Shown here in pieces: positions 27,745 through 54,200 of a stretch of 64,000 bases of DNA. This DNA is from Petroclostridium xylanilyticum. Lineage in GTDB: Bacteria; Bacillota; Clostridia; SK-Y3. Location: the NCBI RefSeq assembly GCF_002252565.1, contig NZ_NPML01000019.1:372001-436000 (forward strand), read 5' to 3'. Made by a program: the position numbers and the translations under genes. The notes below the pieces were generated by a model. That model did not search any database. It was not told the origin of the DNA and saw only the letters and a list, made by a program, of their open reading frames with translations. Positions within the stretch are counted from its first letter, which is position 1; each line of letters starts with the position of its first letter.

Positions 27745-28506
27745 CTACGCTTTTAAAACAACTCCTCTATTAATACCTGTTAATCTTTCAAGCTGTCTTA
27801 CCGATAAACAATATTTTTCTTTTAATTCTTTGAGATATTTATCTCTTGTTAAAATATCAAAAGTTTGCATTTCTGTTACATTCCTTATATTACACACTTT
27901 TTTTATTATAGTCCTTGCCTCTTCATCCGTTATTCGATTCTTTTCACTCATGTCTAAACATACATCATTATTCAACTCATGGTTATATTTGATAAAAATT
28001 TTTATCGCTTTTCCCCGGTCTTCATTCAACATTTCAAGAACATAATCAATATTAACTAATTTTACTTTCTCCACGTATTCACTATAGCTGCTCCATTTAT
28101 ATTTTTCAATGTCTTTCACCAAGCCAGCTGTAAGTGGATTTTGATGTATATATCTTAGAACAGTTAAAAGATATGCCTCATCTTCTACCGGCTCACTTTT
28201 AAATCTATCCTGAAACAGACTCCCTATCCTATCATATTTCAGATTATACCAATATACATAGCTACCACATATCCTACGCATCACTTGTTCTAATGGTTCT
28301 TCACCAACTTTTAGCAATAAATGTACATGATTTCCCATCAGACAATATGCATATATTTCATATCCACATTTATCTTTATATTGTTCCAATACCCGCAAAA
28401 ATTTTGTGCAGTCTTCTTCATCTTCAAATATGCACTGTCGGTTTATTCCTCTCATCATGATATGATATATTCCGCTTTTGCTCTTCTCTCTCGCTTTCCT
28501 TGACAT
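27745..28506 (-). CDS. REP-associated tyrosine transposase (Y1/HUH family)
   Basis: 253 residues. The HUH motif is present in MGNHVHLLL and the catalytic tyrosine in LRYIHQNPLTAGLV, both diagnostic of the Y1_Tnp/RAYT family. GIYHIMMRGINRQ near the N-terminus is also typical. The C-terminal 60 residues carry an HTH-like segment (SVRQLERLTGINRG) of the kind added in clostridial members. The frame begins at a GTG, but ATG 28506 with AGGAGG 8 nt upstream is the start. It nicks and rejoins single-stranded DNA at palindromes; here the palindromes flank the gene. All catalytic residues are intact, so it may be active. Confidence 0.9.
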   Translation of the reverse strand: MSRKAREKSKSGIYHIMMRGINRQCIFEDEEDCTKFLRVLEQYKDKCGYEIYAYCLMGNHVHLLLKVGEEPLEQVMRRICGSYVYWYNLKYDRIGSLFQDRFKSEPVEDEAYLLTVLRYIHQNPLTAGLVKDIEKYKWSSYSEYVEKVKLVNIDYVLEMLNEDRGKAIKIFIKYNHELNNDVCLDMSEKNRITDEEARTIIKKVCNIRNVTEMQTFDILTRDKYLKELKEKYCLSVRQLERLTGINRGVVLKA

Positions 28507-28510
28507 ACGA

Positions 28511-28550
28511 AACACCTCCTAACCTACATTATCATAGATTAGGAGGTGTT
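28511..28550 (-). promoter_or_regulatory. Leader hairpin that would hide the transposase ribosome site
   Basis: In the transposase mRNA AACACCTCCTAA (28550-28539) pairs perfectly with TTAGGAGGTGTT (28522-28511), which contains the AGGAGG ribosome site used by ATG 28506. Such sequestering protects transposons from translation of read-through transcripts. The right-end 24-bp repeat overlaps the distal arm by 3 nt. Confidence 0.7.
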
Positions 28551-36762: not shown

Positions 36763-38227
36763 TTATCCACAAAAAGAAGCTGAAAATGAGAAGTTATCAG
36801 GAGATTTGAGAAATTTGTCCACAGATTTGTAAAAACACGAGAAAAGCCCCCAAATTTATGGTATTGTTAAGATATCGAAAAAAAACACATAAACCACATA
36901 GAAAGGGGCTTTCCTACATGTTTGATTATAGCAAAACAGCATATGATTTGAAAAGAAGTATTTGTAATTTTTGTTCCAGATTGGCTCAGGGTCTCCCTGT
37001 TCCCTTTAAGAAATTCTTATCCTGCATGGTCTTTGGCATACTCGCATCCAAAACAGTAATACTGGCTGAAATATCCCGTTCTTTAAATGAGGAGATAAAG
37101 TTAAAAAAGACTATAGAACGCCTTTCCCGAAACCTTGAAAAATTCTCCTATACTGATGATGTACTTAAGAACCTCTCTTCTGAAGTTAAAAGGTATATTC
37201 ACCATGATACGCCTATCATTATCGACTTAAGTGATATTGTTAAAAAGTACGGCGTAGTCTTTGAAAATATGGGCAAGATCAGGGATGGAAGCACAAAAGA
37301 AACCAATATGGACGGGTACTATCTACTTGAAGCACTTATATATAACCACGGAGACAAGCTTCTTGTCCCAATATATTCAGATTTATTCTCTCCAAGTGAA
37401 CCGGGATTTAAAAGTGAAAATGAAGAAATCATAAAGTGTTTAGACAAGCTCCGACGCTTATACGGGACCAAGGGCATTTACACCATGGATAGAGGTATGG
37501 ACAATGTACTGTTCTTTAATTATTTTGAAAACAACTCTCAAAAGTTTGTCATAAGGCTTAAGAAAAACCGCAATGTCATTTTCAAAGGTAAGGAAATAAA
37601 TATTGTCGACCTTGTTAAACAATATAAGGGTAAATATTCAACAATCATAAAGAAAAAGAACGGTAAGCAAAGAAAAATTCAGTTCGGTTTTCTGCCTATA
37701 GAGTTGCCTGAGAGTACTGGCAAAGTATGTAACCTTGTCTTTGTAATAGTGTATGCCAGAAAAGGGCTTATGCTTTTAACTAACCTTGATATAAAAGATG
37801 GTAAAGACTGTTTAAGACCTATACTTTGCTACATATCCAGATGGAATGTAGAAGAGTTCATAAGATTTAAGAAAAATCAATACAAGCTTGAAGATGTAAG
37901 AGTCCAGTCCTATCAAAGGCTTAAAAACATAAACTTTTTATTAACCATGGCAATGAGCTATATTTCTCTTACTTCAAAATCCATAAGTAGCAGGCAGATG
38001 ATTTTTATTTTGCAGGAGATATCCAAAAGAGTACATGGCATACCACCTTTCCCTTACTACAGTACCGCGGATGGAATTTATGAAGTGCTTAAGAAACACA
38101 AAACTGGTATTGCTGAATTTTTGAACTATACAAAAAAGAAGCCCAAATCGCAGCAGCTGAGTCTCTTCGAACTCAGATACTGCAAGAGCTTGCTGGTTTC
38201 TTAAATTAAATTTTGGGGTATGTCCAT
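36730..38227 (+). mobile_element. IS4-family insertion sequence
   Basis: 1498 bp. Inverted ends ATGGACATACCCCA at 36730-36743 and TGGGGTATGTCCAT at 38214-38227; the flanking 9-bp direct repeats CTATTGTTT lie at 36721-36729 and 38228-38236. One transposase gene fills it. The leader has AAAGCCCC and GGGGCTTT segments that could pair over the ribosome site. The insertion predates the MITE, because the MITE's target duplication includes the IS4 end. Confidence 0.92.
36918..38204 (+). CDS. IS4-family DDE transposase
   Basis: 428 residues. Catalytic residues: first D in PIIIDLSDIVKKYG, second D in YTMDRGMDN, and the E in ISRWNVEEFIRFKKNQY, which fits the Y-(2)-R-(3)-E-(6)-K signature of the IS4 family exactly. 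An in-frame ATG occurs at 36858, but ATG 36918 (MFDYSKTAYDL) follows AAAGGGG at usable spacing. The frame is uninterrupted and its IS ends are intact, so it may be functional. The gene is only loosely similar to its neighbour at 38444. Confidence 0.88.
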   Translation: MFDYSKTAYDLKRSICNFCSRLAQGLPVPFKKFLSCMVFGILASKTVILAEISRSLNEEIKLKKTIERLSRNLEKFSYTDDVLKNLSSEVKRYIHHDTPIIIDLSDIVKKYGVVFENMGKIRDGSTKETNMDGYYLLEALIYNHGDKLLVPIYSDLFSPSEPGFKSENEEIIKCLDKLRRLYGTKGIYTMDRGMDNVLFFNYFENNSQKFVIRLKKNRNVIFKGKEINIVDLVKQYKGKYSTIIKKKNGKQRKIQFGFLPIELPESTGKVCNLVFVIVYARKGLMLLTNLDIKDGKDCLRPILCYISRWNVEEFIRFKKNQYKLEDVRVQSYQRLKNINFLLTMAMSYISLTSKSISSRQMIFILQEISKRVHGIPPFPYYSTADGIYEVLKKHKTGIAEFLNYTKKKPKSQQLSLFELRYCKSLLVS

Positions 38228-38443: not shown

Positions 38444-40186
38444 ATGAGATTACAGATATCTAGATCAAAAAATGCAGCTTCATTTTATGTTATAAAAACT
38501 ATATATACCAATGGAAAAGAGCATACACAAATTGTTGAAAAACTCGGGACTTATAATGAACTTCTTAAGAAACTAAACGGCCAAGACCCCATCGAATGGG
38601 CAAAGAAATATATTGAAGAACTTAATAAGAAAGAAAAAGAAGAGAAGCGAGAAGTACTTGTAAAGTATTCGCCTACAAAACTTGTCAACAAAGGAGAACA
38701 GCGTACCTTTAATGGCGGGTACCTATTCCTGCAAAAAATATACCATGAACTCGGACTCCATAAGATTTGCAAAGAAATTTCACAGAAATATAAATTCGAT
38801 TTTGACATGAATTCCATTCTTTCAAGATTGATTTACGCAAGAGTGATCTTCCCTTCTTCCAAGCTTGCAACCTGTGAGCTTTCCAAAAAATTTTTAGAAC
38901 AGCCGAATTTTGATTTGCATCAAATATACAGGGCTCTTGAAATCCTTGCTAAGGAGACAGATTTTATCCAGTCCTCCTTGTATGAAAACAGCCTGAAGGT
39001 TTCCAAAAGAAATACCGGTATTCTTTACTATGATTGCACCAATTACTTTTTTGAAATTGAACAGGAGGATGGCAACAAGCAATATGGTCCTTCTAAAGAT
39101 CACAAACCCAATCCGATCATTCAAATGGGACTGTTTATGGACGGAGATGGAATCCCTCTGGCTTTCAGCATTAACAAAGGGAATATGAATGAACAACTGA
39201 CTTTAAAGCCATTAGAAAAGAAAATTATTTCTGACTTTGAACTTTCTAAGTTTATTGTTTGCACAGATGCAGGCCTTGCTTCTGAAGATAATCGAAAGTT
39301 TAACGACAAGGATGGCCGGGCATTTATTACAACACAGTCTATCAAAAAATTAAAGGAACATTTAAAAAAATGGGCTCTTGCTCCAAATGGCTGGAAACTC
39401 CCGGGCAGCGATAAAACCTATGACATTTCCAAACTTGATGAAATGGTAGATAAAGCTTCTCCTGAAGATAAAACGAAAATAAGGGCAAAAGTATTTTATA
39501 AGGAGCGCTGGATTAAAGAAAAAGATTTTGAACAAAGGCTGATTATAACGTATTCTATCAAATACAGGGATTATCAGCGTAAAATCCGCAACTCTCAAAT
39601 AGAAAGAGCTCAAAAGGCAATAGAAAACAACCCGACAAAAATCAAGAAATGCAATGCTAACGATTACAAAAGGTTTATTACCAAAACAAGCTGTACTGCT
39701 GATGGAGAAGTTGCAGAAAACGAGATATACAGCATTGATTCTGCTCTAATCCAGAAGGAAGAAGCCTTTGATGGTTTTTATGGGGTTTGCACAAACCTTG
39801 AGGATGATGTATCTGAAATAATCAAGGTGAATCACAGAAGATGGGAGATTGAAGAATGCTTTAGGATTATGAAAAGTGAATTCAAAGCAAGACCCGTGTA
39901 CTTAAGCAACGATGACAGGATAGAAGCACATTTTATCACTTGCTTTATATCATTGATTATTTACAGGCTGCTCGAAAAAAAGCTCGAAGAAAAATTCACA
40001 TGTCATGAGATTATTGGCGGGCTGAGAGATATGGATTTTTTAGAAGTTAAAGGCGAAGGCTATGTTCCAACCTACACAAGAACAGATTTTACCGATGCGC
40101 TTCATGATGTTTTTAACTTTCGTACCGACTACCAGATTGTTACTACGAGTATGATGAAAAAAATTTTTAAAGAAACGAAAAAATAA
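38444..40186 (+). CDS. IS1634-family DDE transposase
   Basis: 580 residues, the length of the IS1634 group. Catalytic segments: ILYYDCTNYFFE, IVCTDAGLASEDNRKF and NHRRWEIEECFRIMKSEFKA, followed by HFITCFISLIIYRLLEKKL. The N-terminal 100 residues (SFYVIKTIYTNGKEHTQIVEKLG) are typical. It has its own promoter, ribosome site GGAGG 9 nt before ATG 38444, and a terminator. Intact frame. It is the probable helper for the 281-bp MITE at 36416. Confidence 0.9.
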   Translation: MRLQISRSKNAASFYVIKTIYTNGKEHTQIVEKLGTYNELLKKLNGQDPIEWAKKYIEELNKKEKEEKREVLVKYSPTKLVNKGEQRTFNGGYLFLQKIYHELGLHKICKEISQKYKFDFDMNSILSRLIYARVIFPSSKLATCELSKKFLEQPNFDLHQIYRALEILAKETDFIQSSLYENSLKVSKRNTGILYYDCTNYFFEIEQEDGNKQYGPSKDHKPNPIIQMGLFMDGDGIPLAFSINKGNMNEQLTLKPLEKKIISDFELSKFIVCTDAGLASEDNRKFNDKDGRAFITTQSIKKLKEHLKKWALAPNGWKLPGSDKTYDISKLDEMVDKASPEDKTKIRAKVFYKERWIKEKDFEQRLIITYSIKYRDYQRKIRNSQIERAQKAIENNPTKIKKCNANDYKRFITKTSCTADGEVAENEIYSIDSALIQKEEAFDGFYGVCTNLEDDVSEIIKVNHRRWEIEECFRIMKSEFKARPVYLSNDDRIEAHFITCFISLIIYRLLEKKLEEKFTCHEIIGGLRDMDFLEVKGEGYVPTYTRTDFTDALHDVFNFRTDYQIVTTSMMKKIFKETKK

Positions 40187-47588: not shown

Positions 47589-48488
47589 TCAGCCAAAAAT
47601 AACATCAATAAATACTCCTATTAAAATCACAATACCTACCAATTCATTCACATTATATGAGGCAATTTGGACATTTGTAAGGTTTTCAGGCGATACAATC
47701 CTGTGCTCATAAATTAACATGGCTGTTACGATGGCAACAGCTATATAGTAAGCCCAACCCATTGTATAAAACAGAGGCACTATACACAGTAAAATAAGCG
47801 CAGCCAAATGGCATAGCGCAGAAATTTTCAAAGCCCCTTTTATACCAAAACGAGCCGGAACGGAATGAATTCCATGCCTGGTATCAAATTCATAATCCAG
47901 TGTCCCATAGATAATATCAAAACCAGCTACCCATAAAGCAACTACAGCCCAAAATATGAACGGCGTAATAATTTCAGGAAAAATTAATTGTCCTTTGACT
48001 GCAAGCCAACCGCCCATAGGCGCTCCCCCTACAGCTGCTCCCAGGACAAAGTGGCAAAGCCAGGTAAACCGCTTTGTATAAGAATATATAATAAATAAAA
48101 ATAACGGTATAGGTAGTAAGTATACGCAGATAGGGTTAAGCATAAACGCTGAAACAATAAACAATATAAAGCAGCCTATGATAAATAACAGCACTTCCCA
48201 TTTTTTTAATATTCCCCTGGGAATATGCCGGACCGCTGTCCTTGGGTTTGCCGCATCTATATCGCTATCCACCAGACGATTCAAGGCATTTGCCCCGTTC
48301 CTGGCTCCCAGCAGGGCAAGTAATATCCATATTAATTTTGAAATTGACGGTATCCCATCCTGTGCCACCAATACCCCTATAAAAACAAAAGGCAGGGCAA
48401 ACAGGGTATGCCGGAAAATTACCATGTCACTGAAATGTTTAACTTTTGTTATTATCTTACTACCATACTGTAATATTCCCACATCCAT
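47589..48488 (-). CDS. ubiA: UbiA-family aromatic prenyltransferase
   Basis: 299 residues, about eight membrane helices. The Mg-diphosphate motifs are NRLVDSDIDAANPRT and, later, DYEFDTRHGIHS (second Asp-rich). It attaches a polyprenyl chain to an aromatic ring precursor in quinone synthesis. Order of the leftward operon is prenyl diphosphate synthase, UbiD, UbiA; this corresponds to mqnP/mqnL in the futalosine pathway or to the dmkA/dmkB pair of Listeria-type EET loci. The substrate ring cannot be told from the sequence. AAAGGAGATATGG provides the start. Confidence 0.86.
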   Translation of the reverse strand: MDVGILQYGSKIITKVKHFSDMVIFRHTLFALPFVFIGVLVAQDGIPSISKLIWILLALLGARNGANALNRLVDSDIDAANPRTAVRHIPRGILKKWEVLLFIIGCFILFIVSAFMLNPICVYLLPIPLFLFIIYSYTKRFTWLCHFVLGAAVGGAPMGGWLAVKGQLIFPEIITPFIFWAVVALWVAGFDIIYGTLDYEFDTRHGIHSVPARFGIKGALKISALCHLAALILLCIVPLFYTMGWAYYIAVAIVTAMLIYEHRIVSPENLTNVQIASYNVNELVGIVILIGVFIDVIFG

Positions 48489-48577: not shown

Positions 48578-50017
48578 TTAGTCTATCTCATACTCTTTCC
48601 ACTTTTTATCCACCAATTCCTTGATCTCTTTACTCATCTCTACATCCTCCGGCCACTCGCGATTGTGTCCTTCTTCCGGCCATTTTTTTGTGGCATCTAT
48701 TCCCATTTTATGTCCGTAATGAGGCAGAGGTGATGAATGGTCTAAAGCATCGAGCGGTCCATCTACAATGAGCACGTCTCTTTTCGCATCTATATTGTTA
48801 AAAACCTTCCAGGCAACCGTGGATAGGTCGTGAGGATTTACGGTATGGTCTACTACAATAACCATTTTTGTAAACATCATCTGCCCCATGCCCCAGACAG
48901 TATTCATTATCTTCTTTGCATGCCCGGGATAGCTTTTTTTGATAGAAATAATGACACAGTTATGAAAAACACCTTCCAACGGCATGTTAATATCCACGAT
49001 TTCCGGATTTTGCATCTGCAAAACCGGAAGGAAAATCCGCTCAGTCGCCTTGGCTATATAACAGTCTTCCATGGGAGGTTTTCCCACGATCGTGGCAGGA
49101 TATATCGGATTCTTCTTATGGGTGATACATGTCACATGAAAAACAGGGTATTTATCCTTTAAGGAATAATATCCTGTGTGGTCCCCAAAAGGCCCTTCCA
49201 CCCTCAATTCATTCAGGTCTACATAACCCTCCAGAACGAATTCTGCATGAGCGGGTACTTCAATATCATTTGTGATGCATTTTACTACTTCCACCGGCTT
49301 CTTTCTTAAAAATCCGGCAAACAAGTATTCACTGATTTCTTTAGGCAATGGCGCTGTAGCAGAATATATAACGGCAGGGTCCGCCCCTATCGCTACCGAA
49401 ACAGGCATCCTGTTTCCCTTTTCTTTATAACGGTTGAAATTTTCCCGGCCATCTTTATGCAGGTGCCAGTGCATTCCGGTAGTTTTTTGATCATAAACCT
49501 GCATCCTGTACATTCCCATATTGATATTTCCACTCTCAGGGTCCCTGGTAAATACAAGAGGCAATGTAATAAACCGGCCGCCGTCCCCCGGCCAACATTT
49601 CAAAACAGGAAGGGTATCCAGGTTAGGTTCCTCCACAACCTCCTGGCAGGGCGCCTTGCTTACCTTCTTAGGAAAAATATTTACCAGTTGCAGCAATTTA
49701 GGAGCAGCTTTTACTTTATTGACAAAGCCTATATAGTTTGAAGGTTTTATCAATTCCCGAATTTCCTGTGCGATATCATCAAGATTATTTACACCCAGGG
49801 CAAGATTCATTCTTTCATAAGAACCCATCGCATTCATTAATACAGGGTACTTTGAACCTTTTACCTTTTCAAACAGTAAAGCCGGTCCTCCTTTTTTGCA
49901 AACTCTATCTGTAATTTCTGTAATTTCCAACTCAGCATCTACTTCTACCTTTATCCTCTTTAATAAACCCTTTTTTTCAAGAATTTGAACAAATTCCTGA
50001 AGATCTTTATATGACAT
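48578..50017 (-). CDS. ubiD: UbiD-family prenyl-FMN-dependent decarboxylase
   Basis: 479 residues. UbiD signatures: NINMGMYRMQVYD, HAEFVLEGYVDLNELRVEGP with the conserved Glu-Arg-Glu acid/base network, FGDHTGYYSLKDKYP, and VDHTVNPHDLSTVAWKVFNN. It decarboxylates an aromatic acid during quinone head-group synthesis and needs the cofactor made by UbiX. ATG 50017 is preceded by GGAGGG with 7 nt spacing; the frame opens at 50044, overlapping the prenyl synthase gene, and the coupled arrangement favours one operon. Confidence 0.9.
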   Translation of the reverse strand: MSYKDLQEFVQILEKKGLLKRIKVEVDAELEITEITDRVCKKGGPALLFEKVKGSKYPVLMNAMGSYERMNLALGVNNLDDIAQEIRELIKPSNYIGFVNKVKAAPKLLQLVNIFPKKVSKAPCQEVVEEPNLDTLPVLKCWPGDGGRFITLPLVFTRDPESGNINMGMYRMQVYDQKTTGMHWHLHKDGRENFNRYKEKGNRMPVSVAIGADPAVIYSATAPLPKEISEYLFAGFLRKKPVEVVKCITNDIEVPAHAEFVLEGYVDLNELRVEGPFGDHTGYYSLKDKYPVFHVTCITHKKNPIYPATIVGKPPMEDCYIAKATERIFLPVLQMQNPEIVDINMPLEGVFHNCVIISIKKSYPGHAKKIMNTVWGMGQMMFTKMVIVVDHTVNPHDLSTVAWKVFNNIDAKRDVLIVDGPLDALDHSSPLPHYGHKMGIDATKKWPEEGHNREWPEDVEMSKEIKELVDKKWKEYEID

Positions 50018-50036
50018 TGATAAGCCCTCCAGTAAT

Positions 50037-51005
50037 TCAAGCATTCCTATTAATTAACCTATCCAACACATCCTGCATAATATCCCGGCTTGCTCCTTCT
50101 GGTAATGCTTTTAAATTGCGCTGTGCTTTATCAAGATATTTTTTTGCCAGCTTTCGTGCATAATCTACGCCTCCCGATTGAAAGGCAATATTGGAAATCT
50201 GTATGAATGTCTCGTCAGTATGCTGCTCTTTTAAAAGATATTCTTTCAGCATTTTGCTATAATCCCCGTTTTGCAGCGCATATATGATAGGTAATGTATA
50301 AATCCCCTGGGTATAATCGTTACTTGCCGGTTTACCCATTAAAACATTTTCACCGGTAAAATCCAAGATATCGTCAGTAATCTGAAACGCCATTCCCATA
50401 TTCATTCCAAAATTCGCTAAAGCATTAACCAGTTTTCTATTACATTTTGCCTCATAAGCTCCAATATAGCAGCTTACGCTAAATAGAATGGCTGTTTTAG
50501 CAGCTATCCTTTTAAGGTAGCCAATCACACTTAAATCAGTTCTATATCTATAGTGGTACTGCTGGATTTCGCCCTCACATACCACCCTGATTGCACGGGC
50601 CAATTTTTTTGTATTTTCTATATCATTATAGCCTGAAATCAACAAAAATGCTTTGCAAAACAAAAAGTCCCCTGTAAATACCGCAATGTCCTTTCCCCAT
50701 TTGGACTGTATGGTTGGAGAACCTCTGCGCAGATGTGCATCGTCAATAATATCATCATGTATCAATGTTGCCATATGCAGGATCTCAATTGCTGCAGCTA
50801 AAGGAATAATCTTTTTTCTATCGTACTCTCCCTGCATAGCAGAAAGTACCATGAGTAACGGCCTTAATCTTTTTCCACCTGACTTTAATAAATCCTGAGT
50901 AGCTTTGGTAACTAAAGGCTGCTTGGACCGAATGCTGCGAAGCAGTGTCTCCTCTATTAAGTTCATTTCTTCTATTATTTGCGGATAGTTGGATAATATA
51001 TTCAT
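50037..51005 (-). CDS. hepT: Long-chain polyprenyl diphosphate synthase
   Basis: 322 residues of the trans-prenyltransferase family. First Asp-rich motif LIHDDIIDDAHLRRG and second ITDDILDFTGE, with GGKRLRPLLMVLSAM near the N-terminus. It makes the C35-C45 side chain of menaquinone (heptaprenyl-type). It starts the hepT-ubiD-ubiA operon. The equivalent gene in the Listeria EET locus is dmkB. Chain length cannot be read without modelling. Confidence 0.88.
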   Translation of the reverse strand: MNILSNYPQIIEEMNLIEETLLRSIRSKQPLVTKATQDLLKSGGKRLRPLLMVLSAMQGEYDRKKIIPLAAAIEILHMATLIHDDIIDDAHLRRGSPTIQSKWGKDIAVFTGDFLFCKAFLLISGYNDIENTKKLARAIRVVCEGEIQQYHYRYRTDLSVIGYLKRIAAKTAILFSVSCYIGAYEAKCNRKLVNALANFGMNMGMAFQITDDILDFTGENVLMGKPASNDYTQGIYTLPIIYALQNGDYSKMLKEYLLKEQHTDETFIQISNIAFQSGGVDYARKLAKKYLDKAQRNLKALPEGASRDIMQDVLDRLINRNA

Positions 51006-51158: not shown

Positions 51159-52253
51159 CTATTTTAGTTGATATTCTTTATCGGTTATTCTTATTTTCCC
51201 TTCCAATCCCTTTGTTATCCGTACCTGCTTATACTGATTAATGGTGATAGCTTCAATTCCCGGCTGTGATTCAATAAGCTGCAGCCCTTTTTCCTCCCCC
51301 AATAGAAATAGGCTGGTGGATAGCGCATCAGCGTCTGTAGAGTTATCAGCAATAATTGTAGCACTTACCAAACCACTTGCAGAAGGGTATCCGGTATAGG
51401 GGCTTAGAATGTGATGATACAGTTTTCCGTCTTTTTCAAAATTTCTTTCATAAGGGCCTGAAGTTACAACCGCCTTATCCGAGACTTCTACTATCGCCAT
51501 ATATAAGCCCCTGCCTTTAAAGGGATCCTGAATACCTATCTTCCAGTCCTGTTCCCTAGGAACTTTTTTACCCCTGATCCAGGAAGTAATATATTCCATC
51601 AATCCGATCTTTTTCTTCCCCAGGACTATTACATTTCCACCTAGATCTGCATAGGCCCTTTTAATTCCATGTTCCCTTAAAACTCTAATTACTTCATCGG
51701 CAGCATATCCCTTTGCAATTCCACCGAGGTCAATGCCGGCTCCTTCCTGTAATAATTTAATAGTCCCCTGCTTCTCATCTATCTGCACTTTTTGGTATCC
51801 TATCTTTTTGATTGCCTCATTAACTTGTTGAGGCTCAGGTACCCTCGGGCGCTCGGTATTGATTGCCCATAAGTCTACCAGGGGCTTAATGGTGATATCA
51901 AAATTTCCTCCTGTAAGCCGGGAATAATATAATCCTCTCTTCACAACCTGAAGGGTATCCGGCTTAACTTTTACAGCTTCTTTAGATCCGCTGTGATTCA
52001 CATTCCATACATCGCTGCCCTCTATGTAAGCGCTCATCCTATTCTCTATCTCTTGAATCCTGTCCATAGCTGCCTCTACGGCTTTCTCCGAATTGTTCCC
52101 AAATGCTTTGATACTTATCACTGTTGATAGCGCGAAATTTGTCTTAGAAAATGATTTTTCTTCTAAGGGATTAACCAGGGTAAATCCTGAAAAAATAATA
52201 GCAATGAACAATATTGTTAATATCGGCTTTAAATGTCTCAAAATAAATTTCAC
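51159..52253 (-). CDS. apbE: FAD:protein FMN transferase (ApbE family)
   Basis: 364 residues. N-terminal membrane anchor or signal (ILTILFIAIIFSGFTLVNP), then the ApbE fold with AGIDLGGIAKGYAADEV, KRAYADLGGNVIVLG, and the metal-binding DADALSTSLFLLG. It transfers FMN from FAD onto threonine in the S/T-G-A-T motif of exported flavoproteins. Two such targets are encoded next to it (52449 and 54249). In Listeria the equivalent EET gene is fmnB. Start GTG 52253 follows GGGGG with 8 nt spacing; a longer TTG-started frame to 52295 is less likely. Confidence 0.9.
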   Translation of the reverse strand: MKFILRHLKPILTILFIAIIFSGFTLVNPLEEKSFSKTNFALSTVISIKAFGNNSEKAVEAAMDRIQEIENRMSAYIEGSDVWNVNHSGSKEAVKVKPDTLQVVKRGLYYSRLTGGNFDITIKPLVDLWAINTERPRVPEPQQVNEAIKKIGYQKVQIDEKQGTIKLLQEGAGIDLGGIAKGYAADEVIRVLREHGIKRAYADLGGNVIVLGKKKIGLMEYITSWIRGKKVPREQDWKIGIQDPFKGRGLYMAIVEVSDKAVVTSGPYERNFEKDGKLYHHILSPYTGYPSASGLVSATIIADNSTDADALSTSLFLLGEEKGLQLIESQPGIEAITINQYKQVRITKGLEGKIRITDKEYQLK

Positions 52254-52400
52254 GTAAGCTTCCCCCAGATCTAAGTTTATGATTTTACAGTGCAAACAAA
52301 TATTATAAACCTAACAACTGTAAAACTCACCTGTTTGTAAATTATCCGTTAAAATAATAGCACATAAAACACTTTATTTAAAGTATTATCTTCATAAAAA

Positions 52401-52438
52401 ATATAACAGGGATATGTTTTCGATCATCCCTGTTATAT
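52401..52438 (-). terminator. Terminator after the small FMN-binding lipoprotein gene
   Basis: Perfect 12-bp stem ATATAACAGGGA (52401-52412) with TCCCTGTTATAT (52427-52438), followed on the minus strand by TTTTTTATG. It lies 11 bp past the stop codon. Confidence 0.8.
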
Positions 52439-52937: not shown

Positions 52938-53090
52938 ACTCTCACCTCTCTATTTATAGATTTTGGGCTATTAGCAGTTGATTAGTACTGCATGCTAATA
53001 ACTTGTGCTAATTTCATAGATAAGTATTTACTTTTTTAGAAGTTTATATGCATCATTTTACCTCATGCTGCTTTTTTATACTCTGCGTAG

Positions 53091-54200
53091 ATTAATAAAA
53101 AAGGGGTAAACTATCTTACCAAAAATGGGGTTGAAATTATCACCAATGCTGCTATTACCGAAGTTACTCCAAACTCTGTTACCCTCAAGACTGGAGAAAC
53201 CATTAAGACTCAAACGGTAATATGGACTTCCGGTGTACAGGCAAATAGCATCGTAAAAGAAATTGGATTAAAATTAACAAAAAGAAATAGAATAGAAGTA
53301 AACAAATATCTTCAGGCCGTAAACCATCCGGAAGTATATGCAATCGGCGATAACGCCTATTCTACTGATGAAAAGGGTAATGGAGTTCCTCCTTTTGTTG
53401 AGGCAGCTTTACAAACTGCTGATGTTGCTGCTCACAACCTTGCTAATGATATTAAAGGTCTCAAAGAAAAGAAGGAATTTAAACCCAAATTCCACGGTAT
53501 AATGGTATCCATCGGCAGCATTTATGCTGTGGCAGATATCATGGGTGTTGGAATGTCATGGCTGTTTGCAACTGCTATGAAGCACATGGTAAATCTGCAT
53601 TATTTATTCGAAGTGGGCGGAATTGAAAGTTGCATAGAATATTTACAGCACCACTTTCTATCCAGGACAAGGCGCAAACCGCTGCTTCTAGAAACATTGA
53701 TTGATCACTTTAATGCACGTTCAAGGTCTTACTGGCTGGCCATCACCAGAATTGCTTTAGGCTTTGTATGGTTATTTTCTGCTATTGATAAGGTATCTCA
53801 TGGTTGGCTGTCAGTTGGAGACAAACTGGTATCCGGAGCTTCATTACAGCTTATAGGTCCAAATTCACCAGCATTTTATATCTGGTTTGTGGAAAATATA
53901 ATATATGCAAACCCACTGCTGTTCCAGATTACCATTACTTTAACCGAACTATTTATTGCAGCGGCTTTCTTAAGTGGAGCCTTCACCTTCTTGGGTGCCG
54001 TCGCAGCTATATTTATGAATATTAATTTCTTCCTGTCCGGAACAGGACAGCTTTATTTACTGCTTGCCCATATTCCTATGTTAGGAGGCGCGGGAAGAGC
54101 TTTCGGATTAGACCACTATATTATGCCATATTTGATGAGACAGTTAAGGTTCTGGCAGAGAAATGAAACAATCAAATTAAAATATCATTTCCACCCATGA
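53091..54200 (+). pseudogene. ndh2: 5'-truncated type II NADH dehydrogenase with DoxX-like C-terminal domain
   Basis: The frame is open from just after a TAG at 53088 to 54200 (369 codons). It begins inside the NDH-2 fold (GVEIITNAAITEVTPNS, TVIWTSGVQANSIVKEIGL), keeps the FAD-contact VYAIGDNAYSTD and VEAALQTADVAAHNL, and ends in a membrane domain of about four helices (ARSRSYWLAITRIALGFVWLFS, LGAVAAIFMNINFFLSG) resembling DoxX. The first 160-200 residues, with the FAD- and NADH-binding glycine motifs, are absent, and there is no start codon before ATG 53502. As it stands it can at most make the membrane part. It lies between the two FMN lipoprotein genes. Confidence 0.8.

Follow-up and report, generated by a model that had tools for sequence, protein, structure and literature searches.

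A probable young 5′-deletion pseudogene of NDH-2 in a presumed extracellular-electron-transfer locus of Petroclostridium xylanilyticum

Introduction

In Listeria monocytogenes and Lactiplantibacillus plantarum, the ndh2 gene of the FLEET locus lies beside genes for quinone synthesis, an FMN transferase and a PplA-like lipoprotein (PMC9888254), and the same kinds of neighbours surround the gene described here. In L. plantarum, ndh2 was required for all tested routes of extracellular electron transfer (EET), and the second NDH-2 (Ndh1) was not involved (PMC9888254). We found no relevant literature on a truncated ndh2 in an EET locus.

The DNA analysed here, called the window, is a stretch of 64,000 nucleotides from P. 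xylanilyticum (C19:372001-436000, C19 being contig NZ_NPML01000019.1) in an assembly of 41 contigs and 3.86 Mb that is 99% complete. A first-pass annotation of the window had pointed to an NDH-2 gene that seemed to have lost its front part. For comparison, orthologues were taken from X23 (Petroclostridium sp.) and from G001 and G003, two genomes of the same family.

Results

The cluster is a presumed EET locus, in which the FLEET gene set of a PplA-like lipoprotein with FMN sites, ApbE, UbiA and a polyprenyl synthase occurs together (Table 1). A functional ndh2 is not part of it, the start and the FAD and NADH motifs being deleted. The 286-aa lipoprotein, which has two domains, matches PplA over its full length at 211.8 bits, which does not reach the curated cut-off of 325, and the other five family genomes yielded no FMN_bind gene with a pair of such domains. 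Genes like eetA/eetB were not found in the cluster; the one NusG_II and Gx-transporter-like pair found lies at C7:417 kb, with dut, maf and mreB-type genes as neighbours, in a place that is conserved in the family. Between apbE and the shorter lipoprotein gene lies a terminator-like inverted repeat (AATATAACAGGGAT/ATCCCTGTTATATT, 52383-52438), which is kept in X23 and G003. The locus is eroding in relatives too, in other ways: in G003 the neighbouring FMN-binding lipoprotein gene, 5′ of ndh2, is broken, with an internal deletion and a disrupted frame (L056:10350-11066), and X23 has no such gene at the corresponding place.

Table 1 Features of the truncated NDH-2/DoxD-like gene, its junction and its neighbours (positions in the window)
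Feature	Position	Strand	Remark
UbiA prenyltransferase (MqnP/DmkA-like)	47589..48488	-	
UbiD-type menaquinone biosynthesis decarboxylase	48578..50044	-	
Polyprenyl diphosphate synthase (DmkB-like)	50037..51005	-	
ApbE-type FAD:protein FMN transferase (FmnB-like)	51159..52295	-	intact
FMN-binding lipoprotein, 162 aa	52449..52937	-	intact; one FMN-attachment motif, lipobox
Block conserved 5′ of intact ndh2	53014..53052	.	X23, G001 and G003, 80-88% over 33-40 nt; retained
Left half of small palindromic intergenic element	53060..53101	.	three fuller copies in genome; right arm GCAGAGTA missing here
In-frame TAG immediately 5′ of remnant	53088..53090	+	within left-flank sequence
Deletion junction	53094..53101	.	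left-flank homology to ~53101, gene homology from ~53094; overlap AATAAAAA
5′-truncated NDH-2/DoxD-like remnant	53094..54200	+	residues 216 onward of intact protein; 368 codons and stop; 53091-53093 also open
Longest ATG-initiated ORF in remnant	53502..54200	+	232 aa: end of NDH-2 domain and membrane domain; without ribosome-binding site
C-terminal membrane domain, DoxD/DoxX/MauE-like	53739..54197	+	Pfam below cut-off here; DoxD above cut-off in homologue L010
PplA-like lipoprotein, 286 aa	54249..55109	-	intact; two FMN-attachment motifs, lipobox

The remnant frame (53091-54200) is open for 369 codons after the TAG and ends with its stop at 54200, and its first ATG, GTG or TTG is the ATG at 53502, so the earlier statements of an uninterrupted frame and of no start codon before residue 138 are both correct. 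Family motifs are kept, as had also been said: the second FAD contact (YAIGDNA, with its G-D pair) and the C-terminal membrane-anchor region, conserved up to the equivalent of residue 402, are retained, along with most of the residues that are invariant among 12 full-length homologues. In the alignment the remnant begins opposite residue 216 of the X23 protein, whose GxGxxG motifs lie at residues 10-15 and 166-171. Neither is in the remnant; the N-terminal FAD-binding motif, absent from 53091-54200, is present in X23 and in an intact paralogue described below, and the NADH-binding motif of the second Rossmann domain (166-171) falls in the deleted part. The reported absence of the FAD and NADH glycine motifs thus holds for both GxGxxG sequences, but one FAD contact survives. 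Likewise, the loss of an "N-terminal half" describes the NDH-2 part, of which about half is gone, but not the whole protein, in which residues 1-215 of 579 make up 37%. Only the last third of the Pfam profile Pyr_redox_2 is matched in the remnant (profile positions 192-290 of 291, against 2-290 in the intact orthologue), and the membrane domain scores 11-13 bits in the window, below the cut-off, against 34.7 bits for DoxD, above it, in the homologue L010. The structure model of the remnant reached a pLDDT of 61 and a pTM of 0.37, compared with 82 and 0.67 for the intact protein. Since no canonical start precedes residue 137 and the FAD and NADH GxGxxG motifs are missing, the remnant is predicted to be unable to oxidise NADH; by homology, it is the headless piece of a fusion protein in which an NDH-2 is followed by a C-terminal DoxD/DoxX-like membrane domain.

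X23 (579 aa, L009:5329-7068), G001 and G003 have complete orthologues of 579-581 aa, each preceded by a ribosome-binding site and containing the two glycine motifs; these orthologues carry the same membrane domain and provide the comparison with an intact ndh2-DoxX gene that had been proposed. The remnant shares 82% amino acid identity with X23 and 78% nucleotide identity with G003 over 1061 nt, and identity over the shared part with the intact orthologues is 79-81% at the amino acid level. Judged from these alignments, its homology to the intact relatives is far beyond chance. The neighbours of ndh2 in X23 match those in the window, with UbiA, UbiD, the polyprenyl synthase and ApbE on one side and BioY on the other, and the shared neighbourhood is the same in X23 and G003 and partly so in G001. 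Because of the same neighbours and the 79-81% identity, we regard the remnant as orthologous to intact NDH-2. Residues 1-402 of the intact orthologue match the NDH-2 of Caldalkalibacillus thermarum (PDB 4nwz; E 1.7e-75), and superposing the orthologue's model on 4nwz gives a TM-score of 0.94, normalised by 4nwz. NDH-2-bearing homologues at related loci are all complete unless a contig edge cuts them.

The assembly lacks the ribosome-binding site and start codon of the gene as well as 215 codons, in which both glycine motifs lie. Relative to the relatives, and counted from the conserved block upstream, which is a probable regulatory region, the loss would be about 0.7-0.8 kb. The junction lies in an A-rich stretch; homology on either side confines it to about 8 nt, and the overlap there reads as microhomology. 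The palindromic element has the form TGCTGCTTTTTTnTACyCTGC, a spacer and GCAGAGTATA. Its match ends at 53100-53101, where gene homology is already under way from 53094, which places the left breakpoint inside the element, with the right arm lost. Fuller copies of about 65 nt occur at C13:363773-363853, C12:123007-123076 and C12:14420-14483, one of them between purR and murC, and the copies are 72-83% alike; with 2 mismatches allowed, neither X23 nor G001 contained the first 21 nt. The element may have been a mobile cause of the deletion, but three fuller copies are too few to tell. Three transposase-like genes recognised by eye upstream in the window (27745-28515, 36858-38204 and 38444-40186) indicate that mobile elements are present in the region. 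No sigma-70 promoter or terminator match was found near the junction, and no Rfam family scored above threshold.

The missing part was sought in the adjoining DNA and in the whole genome. Nothing upstream resembles it, in line with the first-pass annotation, and this lack of homology excludes a frameshift or a hidden upstream exon. Left-flank sequence, rather than remains of the gene, better accounts for a protein match that could be extended across one TAG to 53046. Relocation was rejected as well, since a genome-wide search with the N-terminal 217 aa of the X23 protein returned paralogues only, with 46% identity to a 646-codon frame (C19:231.8-232.5 kb) and 29% to general family members. An intact upstream part restorable by correcting a frameshift, which had been named as grounds for giving up the deletion, is therefore not there; the missing part is represented in the genome only by paralogues.

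One paralogue is intact. It is a complete NDH-2/DoxD-like protein of 642 aa (C19:230.6-232.5 kb) with both glycine motifs and 46% identity over the missing part, so a second complete ndh2 does exist elsewhere in the genome; its neighbour is an FMN-binding lipoprotein gene, and the X23 counterpart of the paralogue has one beside it too. At L057:8012-10467 (C19:230.0-232.5 kb), the paralogue is followed by the small FMN-binding lipoprotein and a two-component system, an arrangement also seen in X23 (L070), and this module is possibly a second EET-like one. As it is complete, has both glycine motifs and adjoins an FMN-binding lipoprotein gene, the paralogue is a plausible second electron entry point. 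The earlier suggestion that the electron entry point had been killed therefore finds only partial support, given this complete gene beside its own lipoprotein gene. Compensation by the paralogue is not to be assumed, because Ndh1 of L. plantarum is not involved in EET (PMC9888254).

The remnant shows no decay: it contains no stop and no frameshift. Among the four orthologues its lineage-specific changes are the fewest, 7 in 242 columns invariant in the other three, compared with 25, 23 and 20 of 255-260 in the relatives. This also applies to the 136 codons before the first ATG, with 3 of 78 compared with 12, 12 and 8 of 83-87. Were all 7 changes to post-date the loss, the neutral divergence accumulated after it would not exceed about 0.0125 per site (95% upper limit 0.024). 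With frameshifting indels assumed to be 8% of substitutions, the probability of finding no stop or frameshift is about 0.06-0.08 at a divergence of 0.02 and about 0.02 at 0.03. If the deletion is real, neutral divergence since it occurred would be below about 0.02-0.03 per site. A branch test of dN/dS rejected neither a common omega nor a neutral omega on the window branch, synonymous sites being near saturation (third-position identity among the orthologues is 46-54%).

Discussion

The locus probably carries a young pseudogene made by a 5′ deletion, an ordinary kind of event; such pseudogenes are common in bacterial genomes. The recent 5′ deletion first proposed is well backed: three relatives have the gene intact, the junction can be narrowed to about 8 nt, and the remnant is undecayed. 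The ancestor would have had an intact NDH-2/DoxD-like fusion of about 580 aa with the conserved block in front, and a deletion of about 0.7-0.8 kb would have taken away 215 codons with the start, the ribosome-binding site and what else there was of the leader, leaving the gene from codon 216 onward. The two stretches that it joined were probably both A-rich, the left one lying within the small repeated intergenic element. The remnant would then be unable to oxidise NADH amid still intact genes for quinone synthesis, the FMN transferase and the lipoproteins, and NADH-to-quinone transfer may fall to the 642-aa paralogue or other dehydrogenases, or else EET from this locus may be off. Pseudogene status would rest on the missing start and active site, as no decay is visible.

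The absence of decay means that the deletion is either very recent or an assembly error. In the latter case, the full gene would be in the genome and some 0.7 kb would have been dropped or collapsed at the A-rich junction in the consensus. The resemblance of the remnant to part of a normally constrained gene and an A-rich junction within a repeated element fit such an error. However, the junction lies in the middle of a 640-kb contig and no other contig of this 99%-complete assembly carries the missing part; moreover, the repeated element, at only ~65 bp and with copies 72-83% alike, is too short and too dissimilar to collapse, and we consider an error unlikely. It is very unlikely that a functional 232-aa protein is made from the ATG at 53502 as a DoxD/DoxX-like membrane subunit that works unaided or alongside another dehydrogenase. 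The open frame, the largely kept invariant residues and the existence of a stand-alone DoxD-like protein elsewhere (L024) would suit this protein, but its ATG has no ribosome-binding site, with a predicted binding strength of -3.1 kcal/mol (background median -3.3) against -12.4 to -13.0 for the intact genes. At the position of its Met, which is internal in the intact relatives, X23 has Leu, and no fetched homologue is similarly truncated, apart from contig-edge cases. In addition, the 136 upstream codons, which would be untranslated, are equally conserved, and their undecayed state disfavours long-standing use of a shortened protein. These points count against the separate role from ATG 53502 that the first-pass annotation had offered as an alternative. 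We give even less credence to the idea that the truncated gene yields a DoxD-like membrane subunit standing alone, which would handle quinone in partnership with the intact paralogue or another dehydrogenase; if true, a fused NADH dehydrogenase would here have taken a first step towards division into separate subunits. Translation from near residue 216 through a non-canonical start (e.g. ATT 53136), with the product complementing another NDH-2 fragment, is hardly credible. Weak purine-rich matches do precede ATT 53136 and ATT 53202 (-7.6 and -8.5 kcal/mol), but these values barely pass the strong tail of the background (5% quantile -7.0), the genome has no separate N-terminal fragment, and the remnant model shows no sign of folding alone.

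A young 5′-deletion pseudogene, if real, would make this strain a natural ndh2 mutant in which the lipoprotein side is intact. The cluster also calls for caution in predicting EET by gene content alone, since it would score as an EET locus with its dehydrogenase broken in the assembly. Compared with known systems, the locus differs from FLEET in that its ndh2 lacks the FAD/NADH N-terminal part and the start, and in that the EetA/EetB-like genes lie apart on C7. Unlike the remnant, 4nwz has no C-terminal membrane domain, and the remnant lacks the equivalent of 4nwz residues 1 to ~212. The likeness to other pseudogenes formed by 5′ deletion is close: in these, too, the promoter-side flank is kept, the start and the first part are lost, and the rest stays open while the pseudogene is young.
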